A stretch of DNA of 64,000 bases from Tethya wilhelma (taxonomy: Eukaryota; Porifera; Demospongiae; Tethyida; Tethyidae), in contig CAXIPT010000005.1 of the NCBI GenBank assembly GCA_964030475.1, positions 4,845,544 to 4,909,543 of the forward strand, given 5' to 3'. Positions 1-55,074 of the stretch are shown piece by piece. A program made the position numbers and the translations under genes. The notes under the pieces were generated by a model. It was not told the origin of the DNA, searched no databases, and saw nothing but the letters and a program-made list of their open reading frames with translations. Numbering within the stretch: position 1 is the stretch's first letter; every line of letters starts with the position of its first letter.

Positions 1-333
1 AGAGGACTGAGAGATGGGAATTGGCATTTCTTGTCGCTTACGGTGGACTTTCCATCAGTTGTTTTGAGTGTTGATGGGTTTGAAATGCGACCAACTCAAG
101 GAAACTATCAGAACCAGTTCCAAACCAGAATCCTCTTAAACCGAGATGGCTCAATCTACAATTTACCAGCTCCCCTCCTTACTAAGGATGCTACCCTCTT
201 GAGTACCATTGAAGGTCGGATTGGAGGATCAGCTCGTGGTGTCCGTCAATCTTTATTTGGACAAGTGAGACAAGTTATGGTGAGTGACGTCCTGGACACT
301 GCCACTTACAACTGTCTCGCATCGTGCAACAAT
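1..333 (+). other. LamG/LNS module 1 (C-terminal part) of the giant cadherin
   Basis: The frame from base 1 reads a LamG core strand (GNWHFLSLTVDF) and ends with a C-x3-C signature (CLASC). The following segment (about 340-560) is the second half of a cadherin-like repeat, ending in an IYYSNG...RIIRLQVEDE motif. The start of the module lies outside the window. Confidence 0.75.
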
Positions 334-3300: not shown

Positions 3301-6300
3301 TTTGTCACATTCACACTAGTGAATGATCCTCCAGTTGTGGATCTAGACAGTGCAGGTCCCGGTATTGATTTCACGACTCGATTTATTGAAGGAGCTGGAT
3401 CCATTAGTATTGCTAATACTATGGCAGGTTTTGAGATCTCTGATGATGACAATGCAAACTTGCAGCGCTTGGATTGTTTATTCCGTAATCTACTTGATGT
3501 TGGCAATGAGTTCATCACACTCAATGGTACTCTTCCCTCAAGTCTGACGCCATCATTTGTCAATGAGTCATACATCCAGATCACAGGGGATGCAAGTATT
3601 GAAGACTACGAAACTGCTCTTTCTCTTATTGTCTACAACAGCAACACCAGCAATCCAAGCGCAGCTGCAAGGCTAGTAGATGTATCCGTATTTGATGGTG
3701 AACTCACTAGCTTTGTTGCCGAAACTACCATCACTTTTGAAATTGTCAATGAACTTCCTGAGCTTGACTTGGATACTCTAACATTGACCCGCAACTTCTC
3801 AACCACATTCACCGAACAAGGTGGTCCTGTTAGTCTCTCTGGAAACCCTTTGATATTTGATGTTGACGACCTTCGCATGCTTCGATTGGAAGTGACGCTC
3901 ATTGGAGGGAGCAATACAGCGGAGTTCATACTTCCCCCATCAACTCTGGCACTTGGACAAACTGCAGTTTTTATTTACCCCACTTTGACCATCCTAGGAA
4001 TGGCACCCACTGCAGAATACCTGAGGCTCATCAGAGAAGTGACGTACAATAATACAGATGCAGAAATAGCAGATATCTCACCAAGGCTGGTGGAATTTGT
4101 GGTCACTGATGAAAAGGGTGGTGAGAGCTTGGCAGCATTTACCACTGTAAACATTATGCCAGTGGATGACAATCCACCGGTCTTCATTCCCAGCAATATG
4201 TACAACTTCACAGTGGAGGAAAACTCACCGAGCATGACTCTCGTCGGGACGGTGGTGATTCGGGACGATGATGACCTCCCACCCGGTCAGGATGTACCCA
4301 CATTCAGTATCATGTCTTCTTCAGGAAGTTCTCTGTTCCTCATTCGTAATAATCCCCTCTCCCCTTACCAAGGACAAATCCTTGTCATCTCGCAGATTGA
4401 CTTTGATGCTGGCATCGAGAGCTACACTTTAGAGATCCAGGCAACATCTACTTCTTTCACTTCAACTGCAACGGTGATAGTTAGTGTCATAAACTTGCCA
4501 GATCTTCCTCCAGTTTTCACCAACTGCCCGCCGGAGTTCAGTGTAATGGAAAATGAGGATCTGTTTGCTTCACTCAGGCCTTCTTCTTGCATAGCAGTTG
4601 ATGCGGACGGTGTTGATGCAATTTCATACAGTATTAGTGGGAATATTGTAGGAGGACTAACACTTGTTGACATTGAGCGAAACACAGGCAGATTGTTTGT
4701 GGTTAACAACATTGACCGTGACACTCGTACACAGTTTCAACTGACCATCACAGCCTCTGATAGTGTGCTCAGTACCTCTAGAAACATCACTGTAAACATC
4801 ATTGATGAGAATGAATTTCCACCAGAGTTTGATCAAGCTAGCTACTCGGGAGAAGTCACAGAGAATACAGCTCCTACTGGAAATGCTGTCGTGACCGTCC
4901 GTGCTACTGATCGTGATGAAGCTGCAGACATGAATGAAGATCCTAACTTTGTGAGTAGAATTGTGTACACTTTGCAGGACATCACTAACCCTCCTCCTCC
5001 CATGGCATTCTTTGAGATCAACAACACAACTGGTGAAATATTTCTAACAGATTCAGTCGACTTTGAAGAGACACCACAGTTTGTTTTACAGGTCACTGCA
5101 AATGATGGTGGTGCAATTCCAGGCCCAAGGTCATCCATGGTGAACATTATCATTCAAGTGCAAAATGTCAATGATGAGGCTCCTTTCTTCGATGATGAAA
5201 ACCCTTTTGTAATTGTCTCAGAACTAATTCCCACTCAATTTGTTTTCTACAATGTTGAGTTTGGTGATCCTGATCCAGACTCTTCTCTGTCTCTCCAATT
5301 CCAACCACCAGCTCCTCTTGAGTTTCTCCTCAACAGTGCCACAGGATCACTGAGTACTTTGAGATCCCTTGATGCAGATACTGAGCCGAGAGTCTATGAA
5401 TACACATTGATTCTGATTGATCAAAACACTGATCCTGCCTATCCCGATCAACAGATGGTGTCAACCAATATCACGATAGCTGTTCAAGATTCGAATGATA
5501 TTGTGCCACAATTTGGCCTGGATATCTATGAAGGAAACATAACAGAGAATGCTGCTCCAGGATTTGTGCTTCAAGTGACAGCAACAGATGGAGACTATGG
5601 TTTCGATACACTTGGTAATCCCAACGGAAACAATGAACTGACCTATTTCTTCATGGATGCTCCTGTGGATCTCTTTGAAATCAACGAAACAACAGGCGTT
5701 ATCTCGCAACTCCGAACTGTAGACAGAGAGGAACGGGGTGAGTATGAGTTCACTGTTGCCGTGCGAGATAATCCCAGTACAGGAGCACCCTTGGTAGACA
5801 CAGCACTGGTCAGAATCCGTGTTCTTGACATCAATGAGTTCCCTCCCGTACCAGATCCAGAGAATTACTTTGCATTTGTGTCTGAAGAGACGCCTATATT
5901 CACCGAGATTCAAACATTTGTGCAAGTATCCTGGAACTATACAAGTAAGTGTAGTGGGAAAATACATATGTGTAGAAATGAAGAGAAATGGAATGTGTTA
6001 TATCAACTTACCTTTGACTTATCCTCATCCCCAGGCCCTCCCTCCTTACTTTTCAAGGAATGAAGGGTCTGGGGGAGGAGCCTGGCTGTGTGTGTGTGTG
6101 TGTGTGTGTGCATGTTGTATTTTGGCTTACTTACTGTTTATATTGTAGGCTTTCCATCCATAATACATGACTGTTCTTCTTAATTCCTTGCAGTTGTAAC
6201 TGGATTCTACTTGCGTCAGGTACAAGAGCCATCCCTCACTGATCCCAGTGTGAACATTCTCTTCTGTGATTACCTCGTCATTAGAGACAATGGAGTTATC

Positions 6301-6877
6301 GAGTTGTTCTCAGTTACCTACATGAATGGTGACTCCTGTGTCAATACTGTTGCTAGTCCTCTCCTAATGCAGTCAATAACCATGGTGACCGTTGGAGCAA
6401 GACTAGTAAATCTCTCGATTCCACTATCAGATGACACACGCAGTGATTTTCTTGGTGCTTTTACCCGGGATCCAACTGACAATACTGCATCAAGGTAACT
6501 TCAATGAGCAACTTTGCTACCAGTAATTATTGTACAAAATTTTGAATCTACATGTAAAGAGTACTCTGTAGACAGTATTTATTGCCACATTGGCTTATTA
6601 ACACTGTTACTGTCTGAGACTATCATTGTTTTAGTTACGTATTACTTATATTTTTATTGTATTAGTGACTGCCCACTATGTGTGTGTACTCTGAATTTAA
6701 CAAAAGGCTAGAGCCACCCATGGCCCTAGCTATGTCTATAAGTTGTAGTACTCAATGCTATGGATGTTGCCACCCATGGCCCTACATATATGTGTGTGTG
6801 TGTGAATAATCTGTAGTTGTAGTAACTGTGAAAGTCAAGTGAATTGTGTGTTTTGATTGAGTTGAGTGTACTTTGAC

Positions 6878-6945
<68 letters not shown>

Positions 6946-9900
6946 TTTTACAGGTATTTAATTTTGGACACTACTTTCATAGAAAATCGTTTGTCTGTGA
7001 TAAGCAACACTATCAGTTTCCACTCAGCTTCTTTTGTACAAGCTCTCAATGGAGAGACTTTCAATGGTCAGCTCATGTGTACTCTTCGTAATGGGACACA
7101 AATACAACAGGACATAGTATACGATGTACTGAATGACTTCTACAACTGCAGTACAGTAAATGGTGGCTTCCGAACTGGGTCTCTCTCTACCACAATCGGT
7201 GTGACTGAGTTCTACACATACACTGGTTACAACGGTGCTTGTGGTGTAGTTTTTGGCCCTGTTGTTACTCCAATTTCACCTTCAGATGTCCTAGAGGCTG
7301 ATCCTCTTTCAGTTGGCGGCAAGGTCTTTGTGAGACTAGGAGAACCTGACTGTGTACTGGGTGTGACATGCAATGCTACCGAGATAGTAACGGGTGTTTG
7401 CGATTCCAACCTAGGGGGCTTTGCAGAAGTTACACTGGCTCCTTTACCGTTCTCAATCGTGGATCCAGATGGCCTCGAAAATTCCAACTTTTTCTACTCC
7501 ATAGAGTCTGGAAACGATGGTGGATACTTCGCTATAGCCAGCGACACTGGTATTCTCACACTGGTGAGAACACTGGACAGAGATACTGGACCAGACTCCT
7601 TTACAATTGTAATTGAAGTGACCGACGGACGGTTTGAAGCCACATTCTCATTCTCCATCACAATTACCGATGAAAATGACAATCCTCCGATGCCCTCTGT
7701 GTCTCCAGTTGTGAGCAGCGTACCAGAAGGAGCACCCATTGGAACACCAGCAGCTACGTTTAGCTTTATAGACAATGATGAGGGTGTGAATGCTGAAATC
7801 ACATACTTCTTCAGCGATCCTAACACTGACTTCAATATCCCTGACAACAGAGTTGGAGTTATCGTAACCAGTCGCGTCTTCGACTACGAAGCAGGTGACA
7901 GATTCTTTAATCTTACGATAGTTGCAACAGATGGAGGATCACCACCGCTGACAGGAACTGTTGTGGTCGAGATTAGCATTGCCGATGAGAATGACAACCG
8001 GCCACTTATCACAGTGGCTGATGTTCCTTTTGTAGCATTTGTTGAAGACGGCCCGCCCGTACAACCGGCCGAGGTTACTGTGTCTGATGCTGACAGTTCA
8101 GTATTCCCGATTCTGTTTGCCGTAGTGTCCATTACTGATGCCAGAGATGGAGAGAGTGAAGTTCTGATAGCTGGTTTCGTGCCTGCTGGCTTCTCATATG
8201 TTCTGTATAACAACACTCTATTGATTGCTGGAGGTGGTTCTCCTGCCGTGTACGGTTCAATCCTGAGCCAGATTCTCTATGAGAATACAGCTGCTGAGTT
8301 CAACCCACCTCTTGAAAGAAACATAGAATATGCAGTGTGTGATGATTTTGCCGATCGCTCAGTTGTCTCCACTCTTTCTTCAAACACACAACTGGCTCTT
8401 CAATCTGCCAGTTCCATTGATGCATCCCTGCCTATCTCTGATGCTGAAATATTGCTCAATTCATGTGCAGATCTTGTATCTGATTCTACCACTCTACAAC
8501 TGAATGCAACAAACGATCGTCCTACCCTTGCTAATGTCACTGTCGAGTTTCCAGCTATTCGAGAAGACATGCAAGACCAGACGAACAGAGGTTCGTTTGT
8601 AATTGATGTTTTTGGTGAAATTGTTGTCGACAGTGACCTAGACTCTCTTCCCGGCATTGCTGTGATTGGTCAAGATGGTCCAGCTGTTAGCCAGTTTGCA
8701 CAGATCACAGACAATCAACGATGTCGAGACTTGTATGATCTTGCTGTACCACTAGCATCGGGACTGCCTGATCTCTGTGACTGCCCTCAAGGCCCAGATA
8801 CTGCTCTCACTTGTGTTGAATATCCCGATGAAGTGACCTTCTACTGTGTGAGATTTGTGTCACTAGCAGTCCAAGTGGATGCATGCCAATACAATCATCC
8901 AGGAGGTAGCTTGGGATTAAATCTTCCCAACTTCTTCTCTCTTTCCTCGATAGAGCTTGACTTTGGTTCGGGCGAAATCGTTGACTTGACAGAACTCATC
9001 ACCAGAGGGTATGTGTCCTTCCAGTTTGAGAGTATAGAACAGCTGTACAACTTTACTTATTCCTTTGCCACATTCACCTACACAACAACCACTAACCTGG
9101 AGGTGTCTTCATCCTCTTATTCTTTTACAACCATCTTCCAGAGTATTAGGATCGTTACAGAAACATTTTCACTCCTACTCGGGCCATTTTCGATCATTCG
9201 ATGGGTCCCACTTCCAAATGCAAATGGAATATCTTACATCACATTCAGAGCATGGGATGGCAGCAATGGTCTACCGCCAGGCTCTCGAGGCATAGATTCA
9301 ACTGTTATTACTGACACCTCTTTCTCCATAGGCACTGGAAATGCAACAGTTGAAATTGTACCAGTCAATGATCCTCCAATTCTGCAGCTAGGAGGTCCTG
9401 GAGTACTGGATTACAACACTTCATACACGGAAGGAGGAATGTCTGCATTTGTATCTGCACGCAACATAGCTGTGCTTGAATTTGATGCCGTTGACCTTAT
9501 GCTGTCGGACCTTCGAGTGAATATTTCAGGTCTTGGAGGCAGCTGTGACTTACCCGATTTCCAGGGAGATTCTAGCGACCGTTTGACCTACCTTAACGAC
9601 ACTTTGGTACCTCTTGATGATGTCATTGTGGAGAGAATTGGTCAGGCCTGTGTGAACTATCTTTTCCAAGGATCACTGAGTGTGGATCAATGGAGGGCCT
9701 TCATCTCGATGATCAGGTTCAGAGTGGACGATGATGAACCTAGCGACCACACACGAGAGCTATCGTTTGTTATCAGCGACTCTGTGAGTACCAGTCAGCC
9801 ATCTTATACGACCATTGAAGTATTCCTTGTGAGTGATGTGTGTCCTGTGATTTCACTGCCAGGAGCAAGTCCAGTCTTGTATCGAGAGCACAGTCCCGCA

Positions 9901-12900
9901 GTCGTGCTAGATGGAACACTAAATGTGACAGATGGTGACCGCCGTCCCCAAATACAATCTGCTCGAGTGGAAATTTTGGCCAACATGGCTAACCCTTGCA
10001 CCAGTTGTACTCTTACTGCAAATGTTAATTCAACTTCTATAACATCTTCTTTTGATGAATCCACCCTGGTTCTCACCTTATCTGGCCTTGCCTCACCAGA
10101 GGACTATGAAACAGTTCTCAGGACAGTGAGCTTCAGTCACGATGGAGATGAACCAGACTTCAATCTTGTCACTGTCCGTTTCTCTGTCCAAGATCCAGCA
10201 GCTTCACCCTGTCCAAGTGCCATGGCCGAAACAAGTGTCATGATTGAACACATCAATGATAATCCCGCAGAACTTTTCCTAAACTTTCCCAGTCCAACCT
10301 TTGCTACAGACTACACAGAGGGAGATACTAATGCAAGAGTCACTGGATCTGATGTAAGAATCATTGACGTTGATGGAGAGATCTCTCCTTCATACAACAT
10401 CAGTTTCCAAATTACACAAGGATGTGTGCCTAGCGAAGATGAGTTGATATTTGACAGCACAGGAGGTTTCTCACCAGCTACTGTTTACACTCCATACGAT
10501 TCAACATCCTGTTCTCTCTTCTTAAGTGGATCCTCGAGTGACTTGATCAATGATCTTCTCCGATTGAGGTACATCAATCGAGATATCAACAATCCTTCTA
10601 GGGGACTAAGGATAATTGAGATTTTCATCATTGACTATGTTAACTCTGAAGCTGCTGTTGATAGAACAGCCACAGTTTCAAGTGTTAACGTATCTCCAGT
10701 GAATGATCCACCCATCATTGACTTGGATATTGCAAGTGGAGTGTCAGACAGCTTTGTAACACACATACTTGGCACCACCACATCCAGTATAGTTGGTTCA
10801 GCAGGTGGATCTATCACAGATTTTGACAGTCCTAACCTGGTCGAGTTGCGACTTACTCTCAGAGAATTTGATCCAAATGGAATAGAAGTTAGACCAAGAT
10901 CTGATCTAGTTTCTGAGTCATTGCAGATCGCCTCTATTGATCTAGCTTCCTTAGGTCTGCTCAGTTCCTTCTTTGAGTCTACTGGTGAGCTGAGAATCAG
11001 TGGTTCTTCTTCAGTAGCCAACTACAATGCGCTGTTGAATGATATAGTCTATTCTAATTTAAGGATTCCACCGTCGGCAACGGAAAATCGAAGAGAAGTG
11101 ACTGTCATTGCTAGTGATGGAATTATGTTCAGTTCACAGGCAACTGCCACTATCACATTCCAAGGAATGTTGAGACCTCCCCTGCTTGATTTGAACGGAA
11201 ATGAGCCAGGAACTGATGTTGCTGGCACATATATCACCACCACTACCCCACTGACCATTGCACCGAACACAGTCCTCTTTGATGAAGACAGTGACAACAT
11301 TTGCAGTGTCAACATCACCTTGGCCGGACCAGACACAACCTGTCCTGCTAGTAGCATTGGATTTGAATCTGCTTTCTCTGATATCATCGTTGAAGTCACT
11401 GACGTTGGTGGTGGAACCCTCTACTCACTCACCTCCACCTTTGCCGACTGCAGAGATGCAATAGTTTACCAAAGTGTCTTGAGAGGTATGACTTTCTCCA
11501 CTCCTGACTCAGCTACTCCGGGCACATGCTCACTCTCAATCTTTGCCACCGATATTCGTACGTCTGTGAGCAGAACAGTGCGAGCTGAGATAGAAGTGAG
11601 AACGTTCAATGCACCTCCCTTCATTGATCTTGACCTCGGTCTATCTGGAAGGGACTACTCTACAGTGTACTTCCAGGGAGGCCGAATACAGAACATTGTG
11701 AGTATATTTGATGCAGCTACTGCACGTAATATAACGGACATGACAATAGTTGGAGAAGCTGATGGAGAAGCACCTGCAGATGATGGAACTTCTAACCATG
11801 GTGTCGTGATCCTTGAGGAATCCAATGCAGGCTACACCTTGTTTGATGTTGACAGTCCTACGCTCGAGTACTTGCAGGTTGAGTTCATTCTTGGAGCATC
11901 ACTGCAGTATGATGTTGTGAGGTTCCCATGCTTGCCTCCAGTTGGTATTCCAGATAGCGGATGCAACGCATCTAATCCTGGACCAATCACTTTTAGAACT
12001 CCAACGTGTGATGATACTGTCTTTGGTGCCTGTAGCTCGCCTAATGATCTCTGCTCCGACCTTCAAGTTACCATCTTCTGTACAGGAAGCAGCAGAAAGG
12101 CTTACCGCTTCCAGTACTTGACCGATTCATCAACAGCCCGCTACGAAATCCTTCTGGGCTACTTAGGGTACGAGTATCTTCTCTCCCGAGGTGGAAGTAT
12201 CAACCAAATCAGAGTGATCAACGTGACCGTGTTTGATGGGATCAGTCAGATGTTCAATCCACAAGCTCTCACGAGGGTGAGAATCCGAAATCAGGACGTA
12301 CTCATCATTGATGTTGACCCGCCTGCACCGAACGCAACATTTGTTGTGTATGAGGATGAGAGACCTGGTCGAACGTGCAACTTGTACACTCTAAGCGTTA
12401 CACGGCTTGATGGTACGATACCTAGTCCGAGTGAGTTGGTGTTTAACATCACAAGTGGAAATACTGGAGAAGCCTTCGGAATTGATGAGACGGGGACCAT
12501 ATTCTTGAATAACGAAGTGGATTGTGAGAACATTGCCCGCTACATGCTCACAGTGAGCGCTCGCATCCGAGATGCAGATCCGGACACCACTGCAAGTGCT
12601 CGGTTGATTGCCGACATTCTTGACGTCAATGACAACCATCCGATCACAGCTGAGTCATACACTGTGAATGTTACAGAAGGCGAGCCCAACAGGCCTGTCG
12701 TGAGAGTGGTAGCAAGTGATGCTGATGAAGGTGTGAATGCCGAGCTTACTTACCTTCTGTTGGGTATTGGTTCAGAGAATTTCCAAGTGGACGGGAATGG
12801 TCTCATAACGACTAGAGTTGCTCTCAATGTCTCCATCGAGGATTACTACCTGTTGGTCATGATTATCACAGATAGAGGAGAGATTTTCCTTTCCACACAT

Positions 12901-15900
12901 ACCGTCATCAATATTTATGTGATCACACCACCTCCAACCGACCTTGCCTTTGATCCAACTCCAATTCCAGCAATAAATGTCCTAGAGAACACTGCTGTTG
13001 GAACTGTTGTCTATACACTCCAGGCATTTGAAGTTGGTGGTGATGGAGAAACTCGTTTCATACGGTACAGGTTCATTGAGATTGTCTCAGAAGCAACTGG
13101 CATGGTCGAAACACCTAACCCGTTTTCCGTTGATTTTATATCGGGAAATATCACTGTCAGTGCTCCTCTGGACTCCGAACGTACCCAACGATACAATGCT
13201 ATTGTTGAAGCGTACAGCATTCGATCACTGTTTCCACCTGGATCGGCTTTTGAGAACATCACCTTCAACATTCTTGATGTGAACAACTTCCCTCCGATGT
13301 TTGTCAATGCACCGTACACGTTTACTCTTCGAGAGAATGCAGCCATTAACACACTTGTTGGTACCCTTGAAGCCCGGGATGTGGATTCCATGAACCTTGG
13401 TTTTGTATTTTCCTTAGACCCTTCTAACCCGCCTGGCTTACCATTTGTTGTGTCATCTGGAGGAGCCATTACAGTCACTGCAGAAGTGGACTATGAGCTC
13501 GATCCAGTATTCACTTTCTCAGTCATTGTTCAAGACATACCACCACACTCCATGGCACCAATGACTGCTACAACAATGGTCACTCTCAATATTCAGGATT
13601 TGAATGACAATCCACCTACTTTTGTTGGAACCCCATACAATGCTACAGTTCGTGAGACAGCACCAAATGGAGAGGTTGTTTTGACCTTCTCAACAATGGA
13701 TGAAGACTCTGCTGTAAACAGTGCTGTTACATACTCTGTTGATGGTCTTTCTGGTACTCCTTTCTGTGTTGTGGATGAGTCTATTGTGGTGTGTAATGAG
13801 GCACTGCTGACTTCGTACGAAGCTGAATTACAGTTCAATCTCGAAATCATTGCCACCAACCTACCATCTCCAGGAAGTGTTGACACGATGATTCAAACAA
13901 CACGTGAACCTGCCGTCATCACTCTGGAATTGATCAATGAATTTGACCCAGTTTCAGCACTGGACCCTGTGAACCACCCAGGCTACTTAGAAGAACACTG
14001 TGGGCGTGGATTTGGCTCCAACTGCCTCGGAATAGTCGTCTACAACTTCAGTGAAATTGTGAGTGATGAAGATGGTGGAACTGGTGGTATTCTGACGTAC
14101 TCACTCAACAACACCGGAGTTCCTTTCACGATTGATCTCACAACTGGTGTAGTGTCCATCAATGGCCGAATAGATCGTGAGGAGAGAGACTTTTACTCAC
14201 TGACAGTAGTGGCTACTGATGGTGGAGACGTGGATGGAACAGTTCGCAGCACCAGTGTGGTTCTCAATGTACCTATATTTGATATCAACGACAATCCCCC
14301 GACAATTGTGATGCCTTTTGAATTTAACGTCACTGAAAACATGACAAGAAGTACAAGTCCGTTCGGACGAGTGGCAGTTGTCGACCCCGACATTACAGGA
14401 ATCAGAGAATTTTATCTCCGTGTCAGTGACGATCCTCCATTGCAACCTGGATGTATTCTTGGTGCCAACTTCCTGCCAATTCAGATTGGCTTCACTTCGG
14501 GTGATTTGTCCTTCTGTCAGCCGATTGATTTTGAAGTTGGTCCAAATGTCTTTGTAATTCGGGTCTATCTCACTGACTTTGGTATATTGGATGCTACTCG
14601 CTCTACCACCTTTGACACAGAAGCTGATATCACAGTTAATGTGATTGATTTCAACGATAACCCACCTGAGTTTGAGCAATTCAACTACACCTTCACTGAA
14701 CCTGAAAACACACCTGCCAATTCTGAAGTTGGAATCGTCATAGCAACAGACTCTGATGCAGGACTGAATGCACAGCTCTCCTACTCAATCATAGGAGGTA
14801 GTACTCCTATAAACTGTCTGGTTTCAAGCCCATTCACCATCGGAGCAATGAATGGAGTCATTCGCAACTGTAGGCCACTTGACTTTGAGGATGTACCCGA
14901 GTATGTATTCGTTGTGCGTGCATGCGATGGTGCAGCCATTCCACTGTGTGACGATGCTATTGTTACCGTGAATGTGATGGACAGAAATGACAATCCTCCA
15001 ATTTTCGTACCCGCAACCTACTCTGCCATGATTGAGGAGACTGACTCCTCTGATCTGATGAGTTTGGTAGTGACAGTGCAGGTGGCTGATGCGGACTCGC
15101 CACCTAATTCCATCAGTATGTTCACAATTCTCACCCCTAGTCCATTTGGACTTAGAAACCCAACAGGAAGCAGTGTGGAAGTATTTGTCCAAAATCCTGA
15201 CGATATTGACTTTGATAGCGGATCTCAGATGTACACAATAGAAATTGAAGCAGTGAACTCACCAGCTGACTCCTCAGACGTAACACAAACTGCCAACACA
15301 ACTGTATCCGTGGTGATAATCGACACCAATGACAACGCTCCTGTGATTGTTCCACCATTCCGATTTGATGTCCGTGAAAACCAACCAGAGATGACAGACA
15401 TAGGCTGTATCAATGCCCGTGATGCTGACTCAGCAGAAAGAGGAGATCTTATGTACTTCATTGGTGATTCTGATGATGATGAGTCATGCATGCCTGGGGT
15501 ACCATTCATGATCAATGCTACTTCGGGTTGTCTTTCCACTTGTGAGCCGCTTGACTTTGAATTTCAAGAATTTTACACCTTCCTTGTGGTTGTGTGTGAC
15601 AATAGCATGGTGGACATGATGTGTACTAACATGACAATCACTATTGATATCACTGACCTCAACGACAACGCCCCCTTGTACACACAAGACCCCTTCGTTG
15701 CGGGAATAAATGAGAACAGTGTTCCCGGGACCAGCGTTCTGTTTATCTCATCCATAGATTTAGACTCGGCGGCAAATTCAATGATCACTTACTCATTTGT
15801 GAACACAAGTGGACCTTTTGCCATCAGAAATGGAAATGAAGTGTATTACGATGGTAGTCAGGCACTAGACTATGAAGGTAGCGTTACGAACTACGTTGTA

Positions 15901-18900
15901 CACCTAAGAGGTGTCAATCCTCCTAGATTTGCTGACGACCAGACCCATATTGTTGACGTAGCCGTGGTGATCAATTTGGTCGATCGAAACGATAATCCAC
16001 CTGTGTTCCCAAGTCCAACTGACTCCATCACCATCCCAGAGCAACTCACAACAGGTGCAGTCATTTACATACTGAACACCACAGACATGGACACAGAGCC
16101 AAACTCACTTGTGAGATTTGCAATCGTGGAACAAGGATCCCCCTTCCAGATTGAAGACAACCTTGTCTCCATTAGGGACAGCGATGCCTTGGACTTCGAC
16201 CCTCCAGCTTCAGTGTTGGACTATGTCCTGACAATCCAAGCAATTGGTGAACCAGCAGCAACAGATGATGAAACACAAGTAGCAAATCTCACACTCACTG
16301 TGATTCTAACTGACATTAATGACAATGCTCCTGAATGTGTTGGGCGTACATCCTTTGTGCTTCCCGAAGATGCTGATGTTGGATTTAGTCTCGTGCGCAT
16401 CATGGCACAAGACATTGATTCAGGACTGAACGGAAATGATGGCATACAATTCTTCATAACTGATGACACAGATTTATCGGGATCGGGATCTGGATTTGGG
16501 TCTGGAGATCCGTTCTGTACTGAAGACCTTCCATTCCGTATTGATCCCGATTCTGGATTCTTCTCCATCTGTACTCCCCTTGATTTTGAGACCACTAGCT
16601 TCTACGACGTGAATGTGACCGTGTGCGACAGTGGGAGACCACAAATGTGCTCCTTCTGCACCGTCATGTTTAGCATCATGGACGTCAACGACAACTCACC
16701 CGTTGTACTGCCTCCGACTTCATTCACTGTTGAAGAAACTGCACCTGTCGGTACTGTAGTAGGCTGTGTGAATGCTACAGATGCTGATTCTGGCCAAAAT
16801 GCTTTCCTCACTTTTGGCATTTTGGATGGCGACTGTTCACCATTTACTCCTTTCACCATCAATGAGACAACTGGCTGTATTGAAATCTGCCAACCACTAG
16901 ACTATGAAGCTGTTACTACGTATGACTTTAATGTGAATGTGTCTGATAATGGGTCTCCAAGTCTGTTTGTTGTACAGACTATTGTTGTGGATATTTTGAA
17001 CGAAAATGACGAGGTTCCTCAGATCCTGACTCCTGGCTTTGCAGATGTCGAAGAAGAGCTAGCTGGAGCAGTGGTCATCATTGTAACAGCCTCAGACAGA
17101 GATGAGGCTCCATTCAATATCCTCACATATGAGCTTCTTAATGATGCTGGTGGCAATTTTGTCATCAACTCAACTAGTGGTGTGGTGGAGACAACCATGG
17201 CATTGGACCGTGAAGCACAAGGGAGCTACACCATTGAGGTTCAGGTGACAGATGGAGCCAATCCAGTGAACCAGATCATCACAGTGGATTTGATCGACAT
17301 CAATGATAACCCGCCTGAGTATCTCGGTGACCCATCTTACACCTTCGTGGAGGAGTTGCTGTTCGAATTGGTGCTAGTCTTTAGGGACAATGACACTGGC
17401 ATTAACTCCAACCTCATCTACGAAGTGTCTGACCCAAGGTTCTCCATTGACAGCAACGGAGTGCTCAGAAACCTGGTGGTTCTTGATCGTGATCCAGGCA
17501 CTGGAGGTCAACCTGTTGTGTTCTTTGTCATCCGAGCACAAGATGGTGGATTCCCTTCCAACGAGATTACGGTTTCAATTTCAATTGTTCTGACTGATAT
17601 CAACGATAACACGCCAATGGCACTTCAACCATTCATGGCAAATGTGGTTGATGGTTCAGAAACTGGTACAGTTGTATTTCAAGTGAATGCCATTGATTAC
17701 GATGAAGGTGCCAATGCTGAACTCATCTTTGTCTTGGGATCCCCTTCGGACAATTTCTCTATCAATACAACCACCGGTGTGGTTACACTGAGCCAGACAA
17801 TTGTCTTGACATCATCCACGCCTGAGGGAATTGAGCTAGTTGTCAATATTTCTGACAGTGGAATCCCTTCACAGATTACTTCCAGGCAGTATACAATTTT
17901 TGTAGTCAGCTCAGTTCCACGGTTTGTGCAAGGTGAATTCTTCTTCAATTTTGCCGAAAATCTCCTCAGTCAAGTAGTGGGAACAATCTCTGCCTTTGAC
18001 AGAGACAACAATCCTTTCAATGACCAGTTTGTGTATTCAATTGAAACCATCTCTCCTTATGATGCTGGCTTCACGCTGTCCAGTAACGGTACGAGTGCAA
18101 TTCTAATCAGTCCAAGCAGCTACTTGGACTTTGAAGATACCACGTATTTCAACATCACAGTGACAGTCAGCAGAGAGAACATGACAGAAGTGATTGACGA
18201 CAGAGCAACTGTCCTGGTCACAATCATTGACTCCAACGACAATGTCCCACGTCTCTCTCCTCTGAATATCAGCAAAGAACTCCCAGAAAGTACGGCAAAC
18301 GGAGTCTCCATTGGTCAAGCCATTGCCATTGACTTTGATACTGGACCGAGTGGAGAACTTGTCTTCAACCATTCGGGCTTTGGAGCTGAGTACTTTTCAT
18401 TTGACGTGAATGGCTACTTTATTGTGATCAATTCTACTGCCATCGATTTTGAAACTGATGCCAACTTCTCATTTGTCTACCAGGCATGTGACCAAGGTGT
18501 CCCTCAAGCTTGTAGTGAACCTGGTTTCATTTTTATTCAAGTCACCAACGTAGATGACATACCTCCCGTGTTCGATCCACCATCGTATGAAATCATGATA
18601 TCTGAAGCCTTCGAACCAAACCAGCTAGTCTTGTATGTCGATTTCTTTGATCCAGATACCCCACTCGATGATATTGTGTTGACTCTCGATCCCCCACAGA
18701 CTCAATTCAGGATTGAGTTGCTCACAGGAAGTGGTGCTCTCATGACGACCGACGTCCCTCTGGATCGCGAGAGTCTTGGTGTCCACAGATTCAACGTGAT
18801 TGCTCGAGACACTGCTTCGGCTACAGCTACTGCTAGCATTACTATCACCATACTGGACGAGAATGATGAAAGACCTTTTGTTGCCCCTCAAGATATTGTG

Positions 18901-21900
18901 GCAATCTTCCGAGAAGAAGGCCCACCTATCTTTCCGGCCAATTTACATGCAATTGTTGATCGTGATGATATCTCTTTGTATCCACTAACCAATTTAACCG
19001 TCTCCCTTCGTCCATCACCCACGTCACAAGAAACATATCCAGTTACAGGTGGCTTTTGTGACTATCAGGAACAGAACTATTCTCTTCTGTATGACAGCAA
19101 TGTGCACAACCTCTGTGGTCTTGAAGGGTGTATCTATCTTCTCCAAGGTTCAGATATATCTATTCCAGCTGGAGGTAGCTTAGTTGGCGGTGTGTTGAAT
19201 CTACCAGGTAGGTTCGATATCGCTAGGAACCCAGCAGTGATTCTTGATGGAGACGTGTTTGCTCAATTTACCATCACAATTTGGGTACGATTTACACAGC
19301 AATCATCACGTGGTATGATTTACGAGGTTCAGAGTCGTGCTGTCAATGTGTTTGGAGTTGAAATCGAAAGTGATGGATCTCTTTCAGTAATCATCAACCC
19401 TACTCCAACCTCTGAAGAAATTTTGCTCCGAACTGGACCACTCGACACTCAGGATGGAAACTGGCATCAGATAGGCCTAGTGCGTGAAGGAGCCAACCTC
19501 ACAATGTACCTCGACTGTGAAAATGTCGGGACAGCCACCATTAACGAAACACTGCAGTCACCTTTCATTCAAAGTCAGTTTCAAGATGGAACATTCTTCA
19601 TGGGAAACCGTCTAGCCAGTGCTCTATATTCTGAATTCTACTTCTGCAGTACGCCATCGACCAGCGACCACATCTGCTGCACACTCACTTGTGGCGAATT
19701 TGTCGGCATAGATGTGGAATCACTTCCGAATGATGTCCAAGGTGTGGTTGACCTACGCACCCGCTCAGTGCACCTTAATTACATTGGCACCGATAACAGT
19801 GCCTCGCTTGTCCAGCTACAAGAGGCAATGAGAAATATCTCCTACTACAACATACTTGATGAACCGCATCCACTAGATAAAGGACTTGTCTTCCAAGTGT
19901 ACGATATGGTTGGTGTATCCGATCAAGAAACAGTGATTATCTTGCGTCCTGAGCTCATCAATGACCAACGTCCAGTATTGGATCTCAATGGAAGAGATTT
20001 GCCAGGAATCGACTTTGGAACCACGTACAATGAAACATCTTTAGGTACAAGCATTATCGGTGAAGAGGCATTCTTGTACGATAGAGACAGTGGGTTCTGG
20101 CCGATTGATAGAATAACGATACAGCTCATTGGCACAATCCCACCATTGGAGACTCTCTTCCTTGCATCCCCTCCTTCTTCGTCTCTTATTGTGAATGCCT
20201 TCGACCATACTAGAATCGAGATTATTTCACCGCCTGGCACTCCTCACTATCCTGGTGACTTCATCGATGCTCTGAGAAGAGTCCAGTACGTGGACAATGA
20301 AGAAGAACCAGTGCAATTCGATCGCTTCATCAACTTCACGGTGTATGACGAGGGCTCTCAGCACACAAACGATCCACTGTCAGTCACAACTGTGACTATC
20401 ACCCCGACGAATGATAGACCTGTGGTCGACCTCAACACATTGGATGATACAACACAGAACACTACTGCTACTTACAGAGAACAGACTGGAAGTGTGTACC
20501 TGCTGGCTGCCTCCTCTGTGAGCATTACAGATCCAGACAGCACTAATGCTCTAGGTGCCATATTTGCCTTCACTCAACGTCCTGATGGAGAACTGGAGAC
20601 TCTGGTGGTGGATGAAGACCGGCTGCCCACAGGAGTGACTGTGACATATGACTTTGACCTCACAGCTGGCATTCTCACAATCAGAGGTGACTACAGTTTT
20701 GCAACGTGGATTCGCATCCTTCAATCTGTCGAGTATTCCAATGCAAATACCAATCCTACCGAACTTATTCCACGGGAAGTGTCCGTTGTAATCCAGGATG
20801 ATCGAGACGAACGTAGCAGCCCAGCTTTTGTGACAATCAGCATTGCACTGTTCAACAACCCACCTCTTCTCTACTTGGGTGGGCCAAATGTTATGGAATT
20901 CCAGACGACCTACACAGAAGATGGAAACTGCATTCCAGTAGTGGCACCCAACTTCCAGATTGTGGATCCTGATTCTGATGGTATCACTTTTATTCGAGTG
21001 ACACTGAATCCCCAAAATGTTGACACAGATTCCGAATCCCTAAGTGTCACGGGCTTTCCTCATCCTGTAAACACTTTTGACCGCTCTTCTTTTGTCATCT
21101 TTTCACTCTTGAACACAAGCATTGCCAGTGCCGAGAGTGCTCTGAGTCGAGTCATCTACTGTAACAGTGCAGATGAGCCCGCCAGCAATGGAGACAGAAC
21201 CATCAGTTTCACAGTGACTGACAATGGTGTAATCACTAGCAGTGGGACTCAACTCGGATCTGCAGTAGCAACGGGTAGAACGATCATCAGCCTACAACGT
21301 GTGAACGACGTTCCAGAGCTTTTCTTTGAACCTCTCAACAATATCTCGATCCGAGGCATACCCACACCTATCATTGATCCTGACACCATACGAGTGGAAG
21401 ATTCTGACAACGACTTCTTCACCCAGCTACTGATCTATATCATCAACCCTCAGGACGGTATAAACAACGAAATCATAGAGTTCTCTCGCTCCCTACCAGA
21501 GAATACGATCTCTGTAGGTCCCTTCCCAGCGGAAGAAGGCCGCATATTCTACAACGTGACTTACCTAGAGGGCGGTGCTCCGACTGACCGTGTTGTGCAA
21601 ACCATATCCGAGGTGCGGTACAACAATCGTGCCAATCAAATCACTGTCGACCCCCCACGTACCATATGCTTGCAAGTGAAAGACTTTGATGTGTTCAGTC
21701 CACTGGAGTGTGTGAATGTGACCATCTCGCCTCCTAACAACTTTGATCCTGTCTTTTCGCCAACAACAACCAATTTGAATTTCGTAGAGACGGACTCTTT
21801 GATTTCAATTGCTAATCTCACGGCTAGCGATAGCGACACAGGTCTTGCTGGCACGATCAGCTACAGTATCAGGTCTGTTTCTTTCTTTGGCAATTCTGCA

Positions 21901-24900
21901 TTCTTCCCCGATATCTTTAGAATAGATTCACAGTCTGGTGCACTGTTTGCCAATGATGGTCTCGATGCTGATAGATACACTCGACATGAGGTTACAGTCA
22001 CTGCTGCAGACATGGGCAATCCTGTGCGATCAGCAGTGATCACTCTCGTAATCAATATTGATGACATTAATGACATTGCTCCGACATTTACTGGCAATTT
22101 ACCTTACATGGCTCAACCTCAGAGGGAAGATTTGCAACCACCGAGAAATATCTTTGCTGTAACAGCCCAAGATTTGGACGCATCATTTCCAAACAACCGA
22201 ATCGCAGGCTATGGGTTGGAAAACTTCCAGGATCTTTTTGAGATCAGCTCCACTGGTCTCATTACTTCGACTGCTCGTTTAGATGCTGAAGTTCAGTCTA
22301 TGTTTGTTCTCAACGTGTCTGCTGTGGATGCTGGAGTCCCTCCTCAGACTAGCTACACAACGGTGACTTTCTCTCTCTTGGATTTCAACGACAATGCCGC
22401 CACTGTTGATCAACTTGCAGCGGCAATTTATATCATTGGAGAAAACCCAGTTTCAATTGGCCCAGCTCTTCGCATTGTGGACCCAGATCTCAGTCCTCCC
22501 ACTATCACTCAGCTGTCTGTCACTCTTACTCCAAATAGCTTGGATGCCAGTCGTACTTATGATCAATGTTTAGTGGAATGTCAAGATGCTCGGCTAATGA
22601 CAGCTGGTCTACTTCCCCCAGCTGTTGATCTCATCACTAGAGCGTCCTTTCAATCTGATCAAAGCTCAACTCCACCAAATTTCGGAGTAACTCAAATTGG
22701 AGATGCTAACTGTCCTGCTGTGAGCATAAGAAGAGATCCTAATAGTGTACGAGCAGAAGATGGCTATGGACGAATTCCTCGATCTACTTTGCCTGCTGAT
22801 TTTGCCTCTGGGGAGTTTTCTGTATCATTTGTGTTATCACAAGTGTCCGAAGGTTTTGTGCTACTTGCAACTTCACCTAATGGAAACAGAGACTTTGGAA
22901 TCTGGATTCGAAGACGTGATATTCGCTACTACTATCTATATGGTCCAAATAGGGTCAGCGTTGGCACCAACCCTGCTCAACATCGACTGGATTCTACTGA
23001 TCCTTTCACAGAGTTCTTTGATCCTACTTCTGCAGAGCCAACAACTAGACACTATACAGTGGTTGTGAGGACCAATCCATCGCCACAAGTCGACTTCTAC
23101 GTAGACTGCTCCTTGCTTGACACAGAGTCATTGAATGGTGTACCACAAACACCCACTGCAGGTATTGACGTCTTTATTGGACAGTCTAGACCTCATCCTT
23201 TGAATGGAGGGCGACTTGGTGCTGACATTCATGGCCTCTACTATCATCCTTCTGCACTCAATGCATCACAGGTGCTTGATTTCTGCAGCTGTGGACTAGA
23301 GGCACTCAGCGTGACTCAGGCTTTGCCAAGTTCAATCTCTTTATCAACTGAAACAGACACTAACTTAGTTTTCCGTCCTTCTGGAACTCTCATATCACAA
23401 GAAGATGCAAATTCTCTCCTTCGAGGGATCACCTACAGGAACACATACCCCTCTCCAACAAGAACACCGGACAGAGAACTCAGGTTTAGTATTTCGGAGG
23501 AAACCGGTATTTCTGGAGAGACGATCGGTAGAGTGAAACTTGTGGAGGCAGATGATAATCTACCTATAATTGATCTAAATGGTTTCCTGGATGCAGGAGA
23601 AGACAATGTTGTCGATTATATTGAAGATGCTCTTCCAGTGGTTCTTGCACCGTCGATCAGAATTACCCGAGATATTGAAGATTCTGAGACACCAACGTTT
23701 GAGAGAATCATAGTCCAGTTGGAAAATCCTGCAGGTAGTGAAGAGACTCTCTCCATTCTTTCTGAAAGTCGGTTCATAACAACAAATGTGTCTGACAGTG
23801 GAACCTGGATTGAAATCACAGGACCTGGCATAGAATCTGACTTTACAGGCGTTCTCCAAACACTTGCCTATGCAAACAGCAACGATGATCCTGATACATC
23901 CTTTGTACGACGTGTGTCATTCACTGTGGTTGATACTGAAGGTCGTAGGAACTCACCACTCTCCGTAGCAACAGTGCGATTGACAGCTGTGAATGATCCA
24001 CCTGAAATATCCATCAGTAACGTACCAGGAGACCTATTGGGTACAGTACTATTTGCTGAAGGATCTGGAGCAGTTTCTTTGATACCTAATGTTACTGTGA
24101 GCGATGTTGATAACACCAACCTAGCTTCAGCTACAGTGACGCTCTCATCCAGTTCAAACCCTGGCGCTGATTCTTTTATGCTTACCAACACCAATCCTGC
24201 AATAACAGTGTCCACTTTTAGCCAGCAACAACTAGTTTTGTCTGGAATTGCATCCCTCGAGGATTACAGACAAGTGCTCTCGAGTATCACGTTCAATTCT
24301 GTGGACAGTCCATTCTTGGATAACAGTGGATCTCCTGAATCTGACCCAACCAGGATAGTCGATATAAGTGTTGTTGATCCATCAGGAGCCGCCAGTGCAA
24401 ATGCCAGAATCACAGTTGAGTTTATGCCCATCAATGATCCACCTCAGGTTAGTCTGGCAGAATCGGTGATCACGTTTAGAGATGGCGATAATTCGGTGTT
24501 CATTGCCAGTGGAGCTAACATCACTGATCAGGATAATCGTCGACTGGCTAGCGTGACTGTGACTCTAGAAGATACTCAGGACGGAAACCAGCTCACCGCA
24601 GATGGAACTACCCTCAGTAGGACGTTGATTTTCTCCGAGAACACAATCACCAATCTTGTGACCTCTCTGAGAAGCGTGCAGTATGTCAATCCTGCAGCTG
24701 AACCAACCACGAGCCCACGAAGGATTACTATCGAAGTGTGTGACTTTGTAAATTGCACGGAAGAAACTCTGACGGTGCTTGTTGAGGACACGAATGATAA
24801 TCCACCTGAGTTTTCACAGAGTCAATACAGCTTCACTACTCCTGAAAACCTCCCTCCATTAACTACCATTGCATCACTGTCAGTTTCTGATGACGATCGA

Positions 24901-27651
24901 GACAGTTCAACTCCCACATTCATGATAACCAACTCTGTTCCATTTGGTCTAACTCCCTCTCCAGCTAGAACATCAGTCTACCTCTACATCACACAGTCAT
25001 TGAACTTTGAAGATGTTAATGGCTACAATTTCAACATCACCGTTAGCGACGGAGTCAACGAAGGTTTTACTCAAGTTACTGTTCTTGTTGAGGATGTCAA
25101 TGAAGCACCATCTATTGCTTTTGTTCCTCCTTCCCCTTCAATTGTAGTAGGAGCTGGCAGTGAGACCACACTCATACAAGTTGCCATTGAAGTCACTGAT
25201 CCCGATCTGGTTGACAATATCACACGAGCAAGATTCACTCTTCGTGATGTACCAAGTGGATCGAATGAGACACTGGACTGGACTGAAGAGCCGGGATACA
25301 CTTTTGATGAGATTGAGATGAATGTGTTTGAGCTGTCGAGCTCTGGAGGAACCACACCTTTGCTGAATATCCTTGGAAATGTCAACTACATTGCCGGACT
25401 CATAGTGACTGAGCTCACGCGGATAAGAGAGGTGGGTGTTGTTGTTTTCGATCAAGGTGGCCTGAGCAGTGAAGAAGCCGTCGTGACTGTATCGCTGGCC
25501 AGTATACCACAGTTCTCACAAGATATCTACGAGGTCACTTTACTCGAAGAAGTGGTCTTCACTGACTTCTTCCAAGTGAATGCAACCGTTGAGAGTGGTG
25601 GAGATGTTATTGAATATGCCGTTGAGTCTGGGAATGGAGTAACGATAAACCCAGTCACCGGTTTCTTGTCTCTGACTGTAGCCTTGGATTTTGAACGTGA
25701 CCAGCTCCTCCAGTTTGAAGTGTATGCCATTGATGCCCTTCCTCCTGCTCGCACAGGCACAGCTACTGTCAGTATCACAGTTATGGATCGAAATGATGCA
25801 GTACCTGATGTAAATAATCTCAATAATGTAACCGTATCGACTGGTGTGCCTATCTTCCCCTTCTCTTCAATCCTCGTCATGGATATTGACACTGTAGGTC
25901 TTATCATGAGGGCTACAGTCACCATCATTGGGGAAGAACCGCTCATATCGGCACCATTGAGCGGAAATCTGTGTGTGGATGAGTACAATGTTATCGACAA
26001 GATGACACAGGTGTGTGGTCTGAGTGCAATGTCATATATCAACCTCCTTGGTAACCTGGATACCATTGGCGGAGGAAGTGTGACAGTTGCTGATGTGTTC
26101 TCCAACATCATGCTCACAAACACTCCAAGCGGCTATTCAACGGTCACTGCTGACTTGAGTGCTTTTGATGGACCCATTTCTGAATTTACCTTTGCCCTGT
26201 GGTTGCAAGCAAGAAGCTCTGGCTACATTGCTTATTATGGAACACCAGACTCTAGTGAGAGATACTTTGCAATGTACTACGATGCTTCCAGAGACCAAGT
26301 TATTGTGACGCTGAAGAGAGCTGGTCTCTCTGGTTTGAGTGCGCAAGTGCGTGTCAACTTCCAGCTGCCAGTCACTCTGAATGATGGAGAGTTCCACTTT
26401 ATAATGCTACAGTACGTGGAGCGGAACTTGGTGTTTGTATTGGACGGAGTTCGTGTGAATAGCTGGGCCGTGGTTTACAAAGAACAACCATTCATTGGTC
26501 AAGTATTTGGTAAGTTAGCAGAAGTCCTATTATATCTCCCCCCCTTCCCTCCCCATGCATATTATTGGGAAAACCTTGAGATCTAGCTATGATTCGAACC
26601 CAGAACTAGATCTCAAGGCCTACATGTATTGGCATGACCAGCATGTTCTTCCGACATGACAAAGCATACAGCCTACATGTCTCATACATGCATACATATA
26701 AACTGCCATACACTTGTAACATTTTCACCTAGTCTTTTAGTAATGATGTTACTATTGTACCTTACCTTACTCTCACAACACAACAGGTCTGCCTCTTGAC
26801 TTTGACATTGAAGGCCCAGCTGCTGGTGGTGATACAACATTTGTCCTAGGAGCACGGCCTACCACAAACAGTTTTGACCAAAATTTTGATGGGGTTCTCT
26901 CTGCAGCTGTTTTCTTCCCTTCAAGAGCTCCATCCATGTTCTCAGGCTGTGTCCTCAGCTGCCTAGAGTCTGTTTCTGTCAATACAGCTGGTACTTCTGT
27001 GAGTGCTGTTGAATTTAATGTGACAACAAGAGAACTTGTTCTGAATGGTGAAGCTACTACTGCTGAATTCCAACAAGTCTTGAGGAGTCTTGAGTATGTG
27101 AACAGAGCTCCTGACACCAACATCAGAGCTATACAACTGCAGGTAAGAAGATAGGAACAACTCTACCCAGTCTTATAGCTATGACAGCCACTGACTCTCA
27201 TCATAATTATATGCCTAGCTATTGTGCACCCTTGTATAATGCCATGAGTGATCTTTGTCTCTTTTGCCAGGCTTTGTATACATTATCTAGTGAATTCACT
27301 TACTGTTTTATCCCTTTTCAGCTGACTGATGGAGCTGGTACTGCAACTACTACAATCTATGTTGAACAGCCATCACCAATGGGTCGCAGAAGAAGAAGCC
27401 TCTCCAACTATGGAGGTCAAGGTCCAAGCAATCACATCTTTATGCGCCATCTCCTCACTCTTCAGGACAATCGTGAGCCAAGCAACAAGTTTGACGGGGA
27501 CACTGAGCATGCTCAGTCTAGAGGTGTTCACACATCAGATCTGACCAAGATATCAGTTGCTACTGGACTTGCGCTGCTTGCAGCTGTTGTCATGGTGATT
27601 GGAGTGACCATCTGGAGCTTTAGGAAGAGGAAAACTGAAACCCTTGCTTAA
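1..27651 (+). CDS. Giant cadherin/LamG type I membrane protein (5' end missing)
   Basis: Exons 1-5944, 6194-6494, 6954-26509, 26787-27142 and 27322-27651 join in frame to 8828 residues plus stop. The reading frame is open from base 1, so the gene starts upstream of the window. The window opens in the C-terminal half of a LamG domain (DGNWHFLSLTV). It continues with roughly 35 classical cadherin repeats, shown by recurring DxNDNPP and DRE-type calcium motifs, interspersed with cadherin-like repeats of the form 'PxLDLNG...Y.EG...D.D...Y.N'. Three more LamG modules lie near residues 6110-6330, 7330-7530 and 8470-8660. A basic RRRR stretch (8741-8744), a 22-residue membrane segment (about 8796-8817) and an 11-residue basic tail end the protein. 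The tail is too short for a catenin-binding site, so classical adherens-junction linkage is not expected. Likely role: very long calcium-dependent surface adhesion or matrix protein. The family is certain; orthology to a named cadherin is not established. Confidence 0.93.
6881..6945 (+). repeat. (TC)n microsatellite in the cadherin intron before the 19.6-kb exon
   Basis: About 32 TC dinucleotides end roughly ten bases before the splice acceptor at 6951-6953, so the repeat supplies the polypyrimidine tract of intron 6495-6953. Confidence 0.95.
19060..19700 (+). other. LamG/LNS module 2 nested in a cadherin-like repeat
   Basis: A LamG sandwich is visible from ARNPAVILDGDVFAQFTITIWVRF-type strands, a DGNWHQIGLVREG strand and a C-x3-C end (CTLTC). 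Before it (18890-19050) lies only the first half of a cadherin-like repeat (FREEGPPIFPANL...LTNLTVSL). After it (19700-19960) lies only the second half (VHLNYIGTDN...AMRNISYYN). The module therefore interrupts one repeat. Confidence 0.8.
22560..23310 (+). other. LamG/TSPN-like module 3 nested in a cadherin-like repeat
   Basis: The module starts at a Cys pair (QCLVEC) and has LamG-like strands (FSVSFVLSQVSEGFVLLAT, RHYTVVVRTN, VDFYVDC, GRLGADIHGLYYHP). It ends at a C-x-C (DFCSCGLE). The upstream half-repeat (22420-22550) and downstream half-repeat (23310-23570, ending in LLRGITYRN) are split by it, as for modules 2 and 4. The module 3 core is more divergent than the others. Confidence 0.7.
25970..26970 (+). 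other. LamG/LNS module 4, split by an intron
   Basis: Strands SEFTFALWLQARSSGYIAYYG, DGEFHFIMLQYVERN and LVFVLDGVRVNSW lie in exon 3. The domain finishes in exon 4 with DGVLSAAVFFPSRAP and a C-x3-C end (CVLSC). The intron 26510-26786 interrupts the domain in phase 1. The flanking half-repeats are 25800-25960 and 26970-27370. It is the last extracellular module before the membrane. Confidence 0.8.
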
Positions 27652-38343: not shown

Positions 38344-39142
38344 GTTTGATAGTCTGGCTGGCCAGACTCTTCGCTCATGCGCGCCTGGAAGAGTCTGGTA
38401 CATATTCTACCCAAGAGTTGTTCCAGATTACCGAACTCCAGTAATTGTAGATTTGATTAGTGATAATGTAGAATGTCACTGTTGAAAGATTATGTAACCA
38501 ACTTGCCCAGGAGGTTATTGCTACATCAAATCTACACTACCAGATTTTGATAAGTGGAACAACTCTTTAGTAGGATATGTACCAGACTCTTCCATTCATT
38601 GCAAGAGTCTGGCACAAGACAGACAAGAAGTTTGAAATGGCAAGCCTATTTCCTGCTTTGCAAGAACTACAGCTAATGTGTGAAGAAGGAAAAAAATCAC
38701 CGATGCTTGTTCTCACCTAGCTTGTTCTATTGGTTATAATTCCATTTTATTTCGAGTGCACCTGTGTCCTCTAGCTTCTGTGATTAATGGATAGAGTGGA
38801 GTGGGTTTTTGTGTATAATTCGCAAATGGATTGACTGCATAATTGGTTAAGTGCATGTGTGATGCGTATGTGCATTGATCACTTGTTGCCTAAGATGATG
38901 ACGACGGTACATTTGTTGCAAAGTGGAATGAACACGACTGTTGTGAGACGCTTGTATGGTAGTATAATAATGTGATTGTGTATGTATTGTTTGGCATTTT
39001 TGTATGGATTGGTATAATGTAAACGGTCCATTGTGTTGAGTGTTTACATTTTAGCAAAGAATTTCCACTTTCACCTGTAGTACACCAACCAGGCAAATAT
39101 GGTCTGATCATGTAATTCTCCATTTACTTCTACTACTGTTTG

Positions 39143-39234
<92 letters not shown>

Positions 39235-40250: not shown

Positions 40251-40325
<75 letters not shown>

Positions 40326-55037: not shown

Positions 55038-55074
<37 letters not shown>

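Follow-up and report, generated by a model that had tools for sequence, protein, structure and literature searches.

LamG domains nested in split cadherin-like repeats of a giant sponge receptor resemble the middle of the calsyntenin ectodomain

Results

The 64,000-nucleotide stretch of Tethya wilhelma DNA analyzed here (the window; G000:C5:4845544-4909543, from an assembly of 124.6 Mb in 204 contigs) holds most of a gene for a giant membrane protein built of cadherin repeats (EC), a second, cadherin-like kind of repeat (CL), and LamG domains. All features of this gene lie on the forward strand (+). It is highly probable that the product is a giant adhesion receptor whose LamG (LNS) domains are housed in CL repeats, and that the whole CL[LamG] arrangement, insertion point included, is homologous to the central part of the calsyntenin ectodomain (EC-EC-CL[LNS]-CL-membrane); that the sponge giant represents the ancestral form is plausible. 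At the level of sequence, this reading is carried by the split repeats and the break they have in common, by their conservation among orthologues, and by matches to calsyntenin next to its LNS domain. No report of such a nested, calsyntenin-type origin was found among the matches listed from the open-access literature, though subscription papers leave room for one.

LamG domains interrupt a cadherin-like repeat

An iterated CL profile, seeded with ten complete repeats, had the second halves of the repeats beside the four LamG modules (M0-M3, in order along the gene) in its training set; its E-values for these halves are therefore inflated, and two clean profiles were used instead (E-values for one sequence). 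One was built from ten complete CL repeats of the giant protein (151 positions), the other from 160 complete orthologue CL repeats drawn from 400 (144 positions). The ten-repeat profile matches M0 at positions 74-136 (E 0.0019), M1 at 14-62 (E 0.015) and 89-149 (E 0.0018), M2 at 18-61 (E 1.5e-4) and 66-127 (E 1.2e-4), and M3 at 61-144 (E 1.8e-8). Second CL halves are clear in all four modules by both clean profiles; first halves are weak to fair in M1 and M2 and marginal in M3, and that of M0 was detected by neither profile. The break falls near position 55-65 of about 145.

M0 is cut by the start of the window: the tail of its LamG domain (1..327; Laminin_G_2 E 0.14 for the cut domain) ends in a CLASC pair (313-327) and is followed by the second half of the split repeat (331..597; positions 59-143 of the 144 in the orthologue profile, E 3.5e-7). 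M1 is whole (18889-19965). Its first CL half (18889..19032; orthologue profile 13-59, E 0.0067; AlphaFold2 strands 8-52) leads, through a linker whose C...Y...LCG motif is common to calsyntenin by hhalign (19057..19119), into a LamG domain (19177..19647) that scores above the Laminin_G_3 cut-off (E 3.6e-9), occupies residues 108-264 of the AlphaFold2 model, and finds ConA-like folds; the Pfam match and the fold together identify it as LamG/LNS. A CTLTC pair (19678..19692; both cysteines in 42 of 42 sequences) and the second CL half (19735..19965; profile 71-142, E 7e-7) complete the module, and four CL repeats follow (19969..21741).

M2 (22417-23559) comprises a first half (22417..22551; profile 15-55, E 2.1e-4), a divergent LamG domain (22699..23277; Laminin_G_3 E 0.0096, under the cut-off, with a LamG profile match there in 41 of 41 orthologues), and a second half (23287..23559; profile 55-143, E 2.9e-8) that begins at a CSC (within 23281-23295). 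Three CL repeats come after it (23563..24804), the third bearing a Pfam CLSTN_C match. In M3 (25843-27363), a marginal first half (25843..25941; profile 27-55, E 0.17), its register backed by hhalign to calsyntenin, precedes a CVDEY...VCG linker (25972..26019; both cysteines in 42 of 42 sequences) and a LamG domain (26140..26947; Laminin_G_3 E 9.4e-4, under the cut-off) split by an intron at 26510-26786. The CVLSC pair (26948-26962) and second CL half span 26948..27363, with an intron at 27143-27321 inside (profile 59-137, E 1.7e-11).

The preliminary description had set the LamG domain inside a cadherin-like repeat, counted at least four such modules in one protein, and named a cysteine pair for each. 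Four LamG domains and all four pairs were recovered, and every detected flank matches half of one repeat; complete cadherin-like domains flanking a LamG were not seen. The splitting itself thus stands, and what does not is an ordinary EC identity for the split repeat, which, judged from sequence, is a separate CL type. The Pfam family nearest to the CL repeats is CLSTN_C, under its cut-off but the best family among 20 CL repeats scanned (E 0.0015, in one of the 20); a PDB profile search with CL repeats returned nothing convincing.

Across the orthologues, breaks were sought with a gap of 150-320 residues, a left end below 90, and a right start above 45. Of about 82 sites at which a break could have been picked up (M1 and M2 of 41 proteins), the filter flagged 44. 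Their left ends lie at 54-64 and their right starts at 50-95, 40 of the 44 within 50-62, and the gaps measure 205-289 residues. Structural modelling with AlphaFold2 covered M1 only, with 19 orthologues (pLDDT 88.3, pTM 0.86); the model has four strands before the LamG domain, and strands, a helix, and further strands after it. Fold searches with this model were dominated by LamG/ConA-like domains of unrelated proteins and barely probed the CL part. Matches to bacterial arabinanases, sialidases, the binding parts of clostridial neurotoxins, and thrombospondin were set aside as sharing a common fold only.

Conservation in orthologues and other giants

The orthologue set comprises 41 full-coverage proteins (35-55% identity), from a search in which scoring was limited to the 836 candidates with the most words in common; coverage is counted from M1 on, with M0 outside it. 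From M1 on, all 41 share the order LamG, four CL, two EC, LamG, three CL, EC, CL, EC, LamG. In 37 the string is identical down to the two half repeats; of the rest, three are missing one half-repeat label and one has an additional first-half label.

A second kind of giant (P0049, P0051, and P0052) also contains one nested LamG per protein. The M1 profile (370 positions) matches P0049 at 3-369 (independent E-value, iE, 2.7e-12) and P0051 at 1-369 (iE 1.1e-9), and in P0052 it covers most of the module (2-302 of 370, iE 1.1e-6). Complete CL repeats number 15 in P0042, 10 in P0048, and 15 in P0061, none of which has a LamG match in the self-built profiles, and 15 in each of P0043-P0046, with no LamG among their listed Pfam domains. 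At iE <1e-3, no CL repeats were matched in Fat3 of catfish (P0050), a hemichordate giant (P0053), or seven further giants. Elsewhere in the same genome, at G000:C6, about 4124016-4146164, lies an open frame of 10,528 aa with abundant cadherin matches.

Likeness to calsyntenin

According to PMC9064300, a calsyntenin has two cadherin domains and one LNS domain, then a membrane span and a short tail, and accounts of its binding to neurexin conflict; PMC10734073 includes calsyntenin in the bilaterian cadherin toolkit. Our comparison set consisted of 120 calsyntenins among the matches listed, of 1,373, which by name are calsyntenin-1 of land vertebrates. The orthologue CL profile, built from unsplit repeats only, matched 120 of 120 (all E <2e-8) and none of 240 decoys. 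Within calsyntenin, it matches the segment behind the LNS, one additional whole repeat, and, weakly, the segment ahead of the LNS; the break (54|61) is the same as in the sponge giant. In hhalign comparisons, the post-LamG segment of M1 aligns to the post-LNS segment of calsyntenin with Prob 92.8 (E 3.9e-7; 0 of 200 column shuffles as good), and the pre-LamG segments of M1 and M3 outscore all 200 shuffles, M3 narrowly (20.4 vs. 19.8 for the best shuffle). The C...Y...LCG-type motif occurs twice in the 9,426 aa of the modelled giant, before the LamG domains of M1 and M3, and a similar pattern is present in 119 of the 120 calsyntenins. Among 17 CL units, the M1 split half is the best for calsyntenin. 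For control LamG proteins (P0050, P0056, and P0059), the alignment to the M1 family covers at most M1 residues 1-43, with scores of 24.7-38.3, as compared with 55.5 for calsyntenin. The resemblance to calsyntenin first proposed from the sequence is therefore supported, and extends beyond that proposal, by the M1 post-LamG match, the CL profile, and the shared break, and the post-LamG segment of M1 finds its counterpart in calsyntenin rather than in an unrelated profile.

Several results weigh against this reading. The calsyntenin set yields a narrow profile. The flanks of M2 have no significant match to calsyntenin (15 and 10 of 200 shuffles as good), and M2 and M3 aligned end to end with whole calsyntenin reach only Prob <3. 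By itself, the match before the LNS is weak (Prob 9 and 11 by hhalign), and single-domain E-values in P0062 are 2.3 before the LNS, 0.015 after it, and 7.5e-5 on the whole repeat. With the ten-repeat window profile, no more than 13 of 120 calsyntenins reach E 1e-3, and 28 of 240 decoys are hit at E up to 10, none <1; the iterated window profile hits one decoy at E 4.6. Pfam CLSTN_C (PF19699) is never above its cut-off in the giant protein (best E 3.7e-5, 23.2 bits vs. a cut-off of 27). P0061 and P0054 have CL half matches without an adjoining LamG match, so broken CL repeats also arise for other reasons. AlphaFold2 gave an unusable model of calsyntenin (pLDDT 33). For the fold comparison, a 46-residue calsyntenin stretch had no match among PDB sequences.

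A probable relative of calsyntenin rather than a calsyntenin

With CLSTN_C below its cut-off and a tail (SFRKRKTETLA) that lacks a WDD motif, the giant protein does not appear to be a calsyntenin itself. WDD motifs bind kinesin, and they were seen in P0068. Like calsyntenins (CLSTN1-3, CASY-1), the giant combines EC-EC, an LNS that splits a CL repeat at the same position, a further CL repeat, and a membrane span, with CxxxC after the LNS and C...Y...LCG before it. Calsyntenins, however, have about 950-1,000 aa, one module, and a WDD tail, whereas the sponge giant has about 9,426 aa, four modules, and a short basic tail. The order EC-EC-CL[LamG]-CL is found at M0 and M2, and also at M1 after a run of 20 EC, within a protein of about 36 EC and four LamG; M3, nearest the membrane, is preceded by EC, CL, EC, and no CL follows it. 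Taking an LNS in a CL repeat followed by CxxxC as the diagnostic feature—one derived here and not a published criterion—M1 has it fully and M3 in part, and M2 has the CSC with no significant flank match to calsyntenin.

Fat/Dachsous/CELSR-type giant cadherins share the long EC rows and the single membrane span, and LamG is present in Fat3 (P0050); CELSR also contains LamG. They differ in that no CL repeats were detected in Fat3 or eight others (0 at iE <1e-3). Bacterial cadherin-like repeats (Pfam Cadherin_4, PF17803) show a weak likeness to a single stretch of the window that contains CL (E 0.036, below cut-off). Cadherin_4 exceeds its cut-off in P0048, but the best stretch (2188-2250) lies outside the CL repeats, and this link is only a lead.

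Discussion

Alternative explanations

That the LamG domains are not nested at all, each lying between complete cadherin-like domains, is very improbable. The first halves of M0 (undetected) and M3 (E 0.17) are not firmly CL parts, as this explanation would have it, but each detected flank matches one part of the CL profile, and in M1 and M2 the parts sum to one repeat. We also consider it improbable, if less extremely so, that the insertion of LamG into a CL repeat happened twice, once in the sponge giant and once in calsyntenin, leaving only the CL repeats homologous. CL repeats and LamG are both common, the ends of LamG lie close together and favor insertion, M2 has no special tie to calsyntenin, and some CL repeats seem, from partial matches, to bear other, non-LamG insertions. 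Convergence of this kind fits poorly with the identical break position, with the EC-EC-before and CL-after order repeated at M0 and M2, and with the shared CxxxC and C...Y...LCG motifs and the first rank of the M1 split half.

Descent could instead have run in the opposite direction, with a calsyntenin-like receptor coming first, its module adopted by the sponge giant and multiplied there, and the small gene lost in sponges; this is unlikely, but it deserves more weight than the two explanations above. In a six-frame search of the genome in which exons were read singly and the best candidates scored, the one region of bird calsyntenin to find a match was its cadherin part (residues 33-277). 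A six-frame, exon-by-exon search likewise found no CLSTN_C over the cut-off, an absence that remains unproven given single-exon reading and the scoring of best candidates. Three weak CLSTN_C matches in the genome were read as unrelated sequence. With only the cadherin part matched and CLSTN_C below its cut-off, loss of calsyntenin from this genome is indistinguishable from original absence. Against the opposite direction, the second kind of giant also has one nested LamG, and the module is therefore at home in giant CL cadherins. Homology of the nested unit, as set out at the start, is the explanation that we prefer.

The giant gene and its surroundings

The gene occupies 1..27651 of the window, and its start lies outside, at a coordinate of about -1958. 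Five exons fall within the window (1-5944, 6194-6494, 6954-26509, 26787-27142, and 27322-27651) and two more upstream. Splice sites were read from sequence, not from transcripts; the splice signals are compatible, and a single open frame of 8,828 aa runs across the five window exons. The two upstream exons contribute 598 aa, for a modelled protein of 9,426 aa; they encode a signal-like start followed by one CL repeat, a pair of cadherins, and the beginning of the M0 LamG. At the upstream junction, GTAAGT/TAG was chosen among 44 fitting combinations. About 1.9 kb upstream of the first exon (L027 from 8042, window about -1958) is a second copy very similar to it (L027 from about 6136, window about -3864). 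The frame of this copy from the ATG ends after about 218 codons, and by reading it looks like a partial tandem duplication.

The model describes a single-pass membrane protein, with its signal-like start and one membrane span. Self-built profiles count about 36 EC, 21 complete CL, and four LamG. From the N-terminus, the order is CL, two EC, LamG, half CL, three CL, three EC, three CL, seven EC, six CL, and 20 EC, and thereafter LamG, half CL, four CL, two EC, LamG, half CL, three CL, EC, CL, EC, LamG, and half CL. Cadherin EC repeats (PF00028) match with E 5.2e-79 and 5.9e-209 in the two long stretches scanned. Two CL repeats, at about 8370-9228 and about 11620-12060, apparently carry long non-LamG insertions (partial CL matches). 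The membrane span (27547..27615), followed by the short basic tail, was read from the sequence alone, as was an RRRRS (27385..27399) between the last CL half and the span. Such motifs are possible sites of furin-type cleavage; its place before the membrane suggests furin-type cutting, with possible release of the ectodomain or a two-chain form.

Adjoining the giant gene is a soluble guanylate cyclase-like gene (29371-30930, -) with HNOBA and cyclase domains. Seven contigs apparently common to the lists of relatives of both genes suggest that the two stay together in related genomes. The window further contains a reduced folate carrier-like gene (54974-55966, -; PF01770, E 4.7e-78) and, at 39071-40361, overlapping open reading frames of about 400 aa on both strands, with two long (AC)n arrays inside (39144-39234 and 40252-40323). 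A megablast against phages gave no match. Contig C162 of the same assembly (21,218 bases) matches ATP synthase C and can be read as a mitochondrial genome in which TGA encodes Trp (code 4). Its first 10,000 bases (L039, G000:C162:1-10000) presumably carry nad6, cox2, atp6, cox3, cob, atp9, nad4, and nad3, named by reading, with no family search. A mitochondrial atp9 is a demosponge mark, and the contig thereby supports the sponge-like character that the preliminary description gave to the protein.

Proposed architecture and significance

Calcium stiffens rows of EC domains, and the EC and CL row of the giant would form a stiff, calcium-bound rod of about 60 domains that holds four LamG arms away from the cell. 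At each module, the two CL halves would close into one beta-sandwich, leaving the rod continuous; the LamG, carried in a loop of the CL repeat, would project sideways as a ligand-binding side arm, its base perhaps clamped by the cysteine pairs. Four such arms would suit multivalent cell-cell or cell-matrix binding.

We put at about even the chances that the calsyntenin ectodomain is itself nested, with its LNS in a cadherin-like repeat, and arose from a single cassette within a giant cadherin of many modules that nerveless animals already had, such that the LNS is a sideways arm of a rod and not a bead on a chain. If the LNS is so nested, calsyntenin constructs bounded at the LNS would halve a domain, and the LNS would face sideways. 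The sponge relatives offer a testable pre-nervous-system origin for a synaptic receptor, and the outer part of calsyntenin may go back to adhesion proteins such as occur in nerveless animals.
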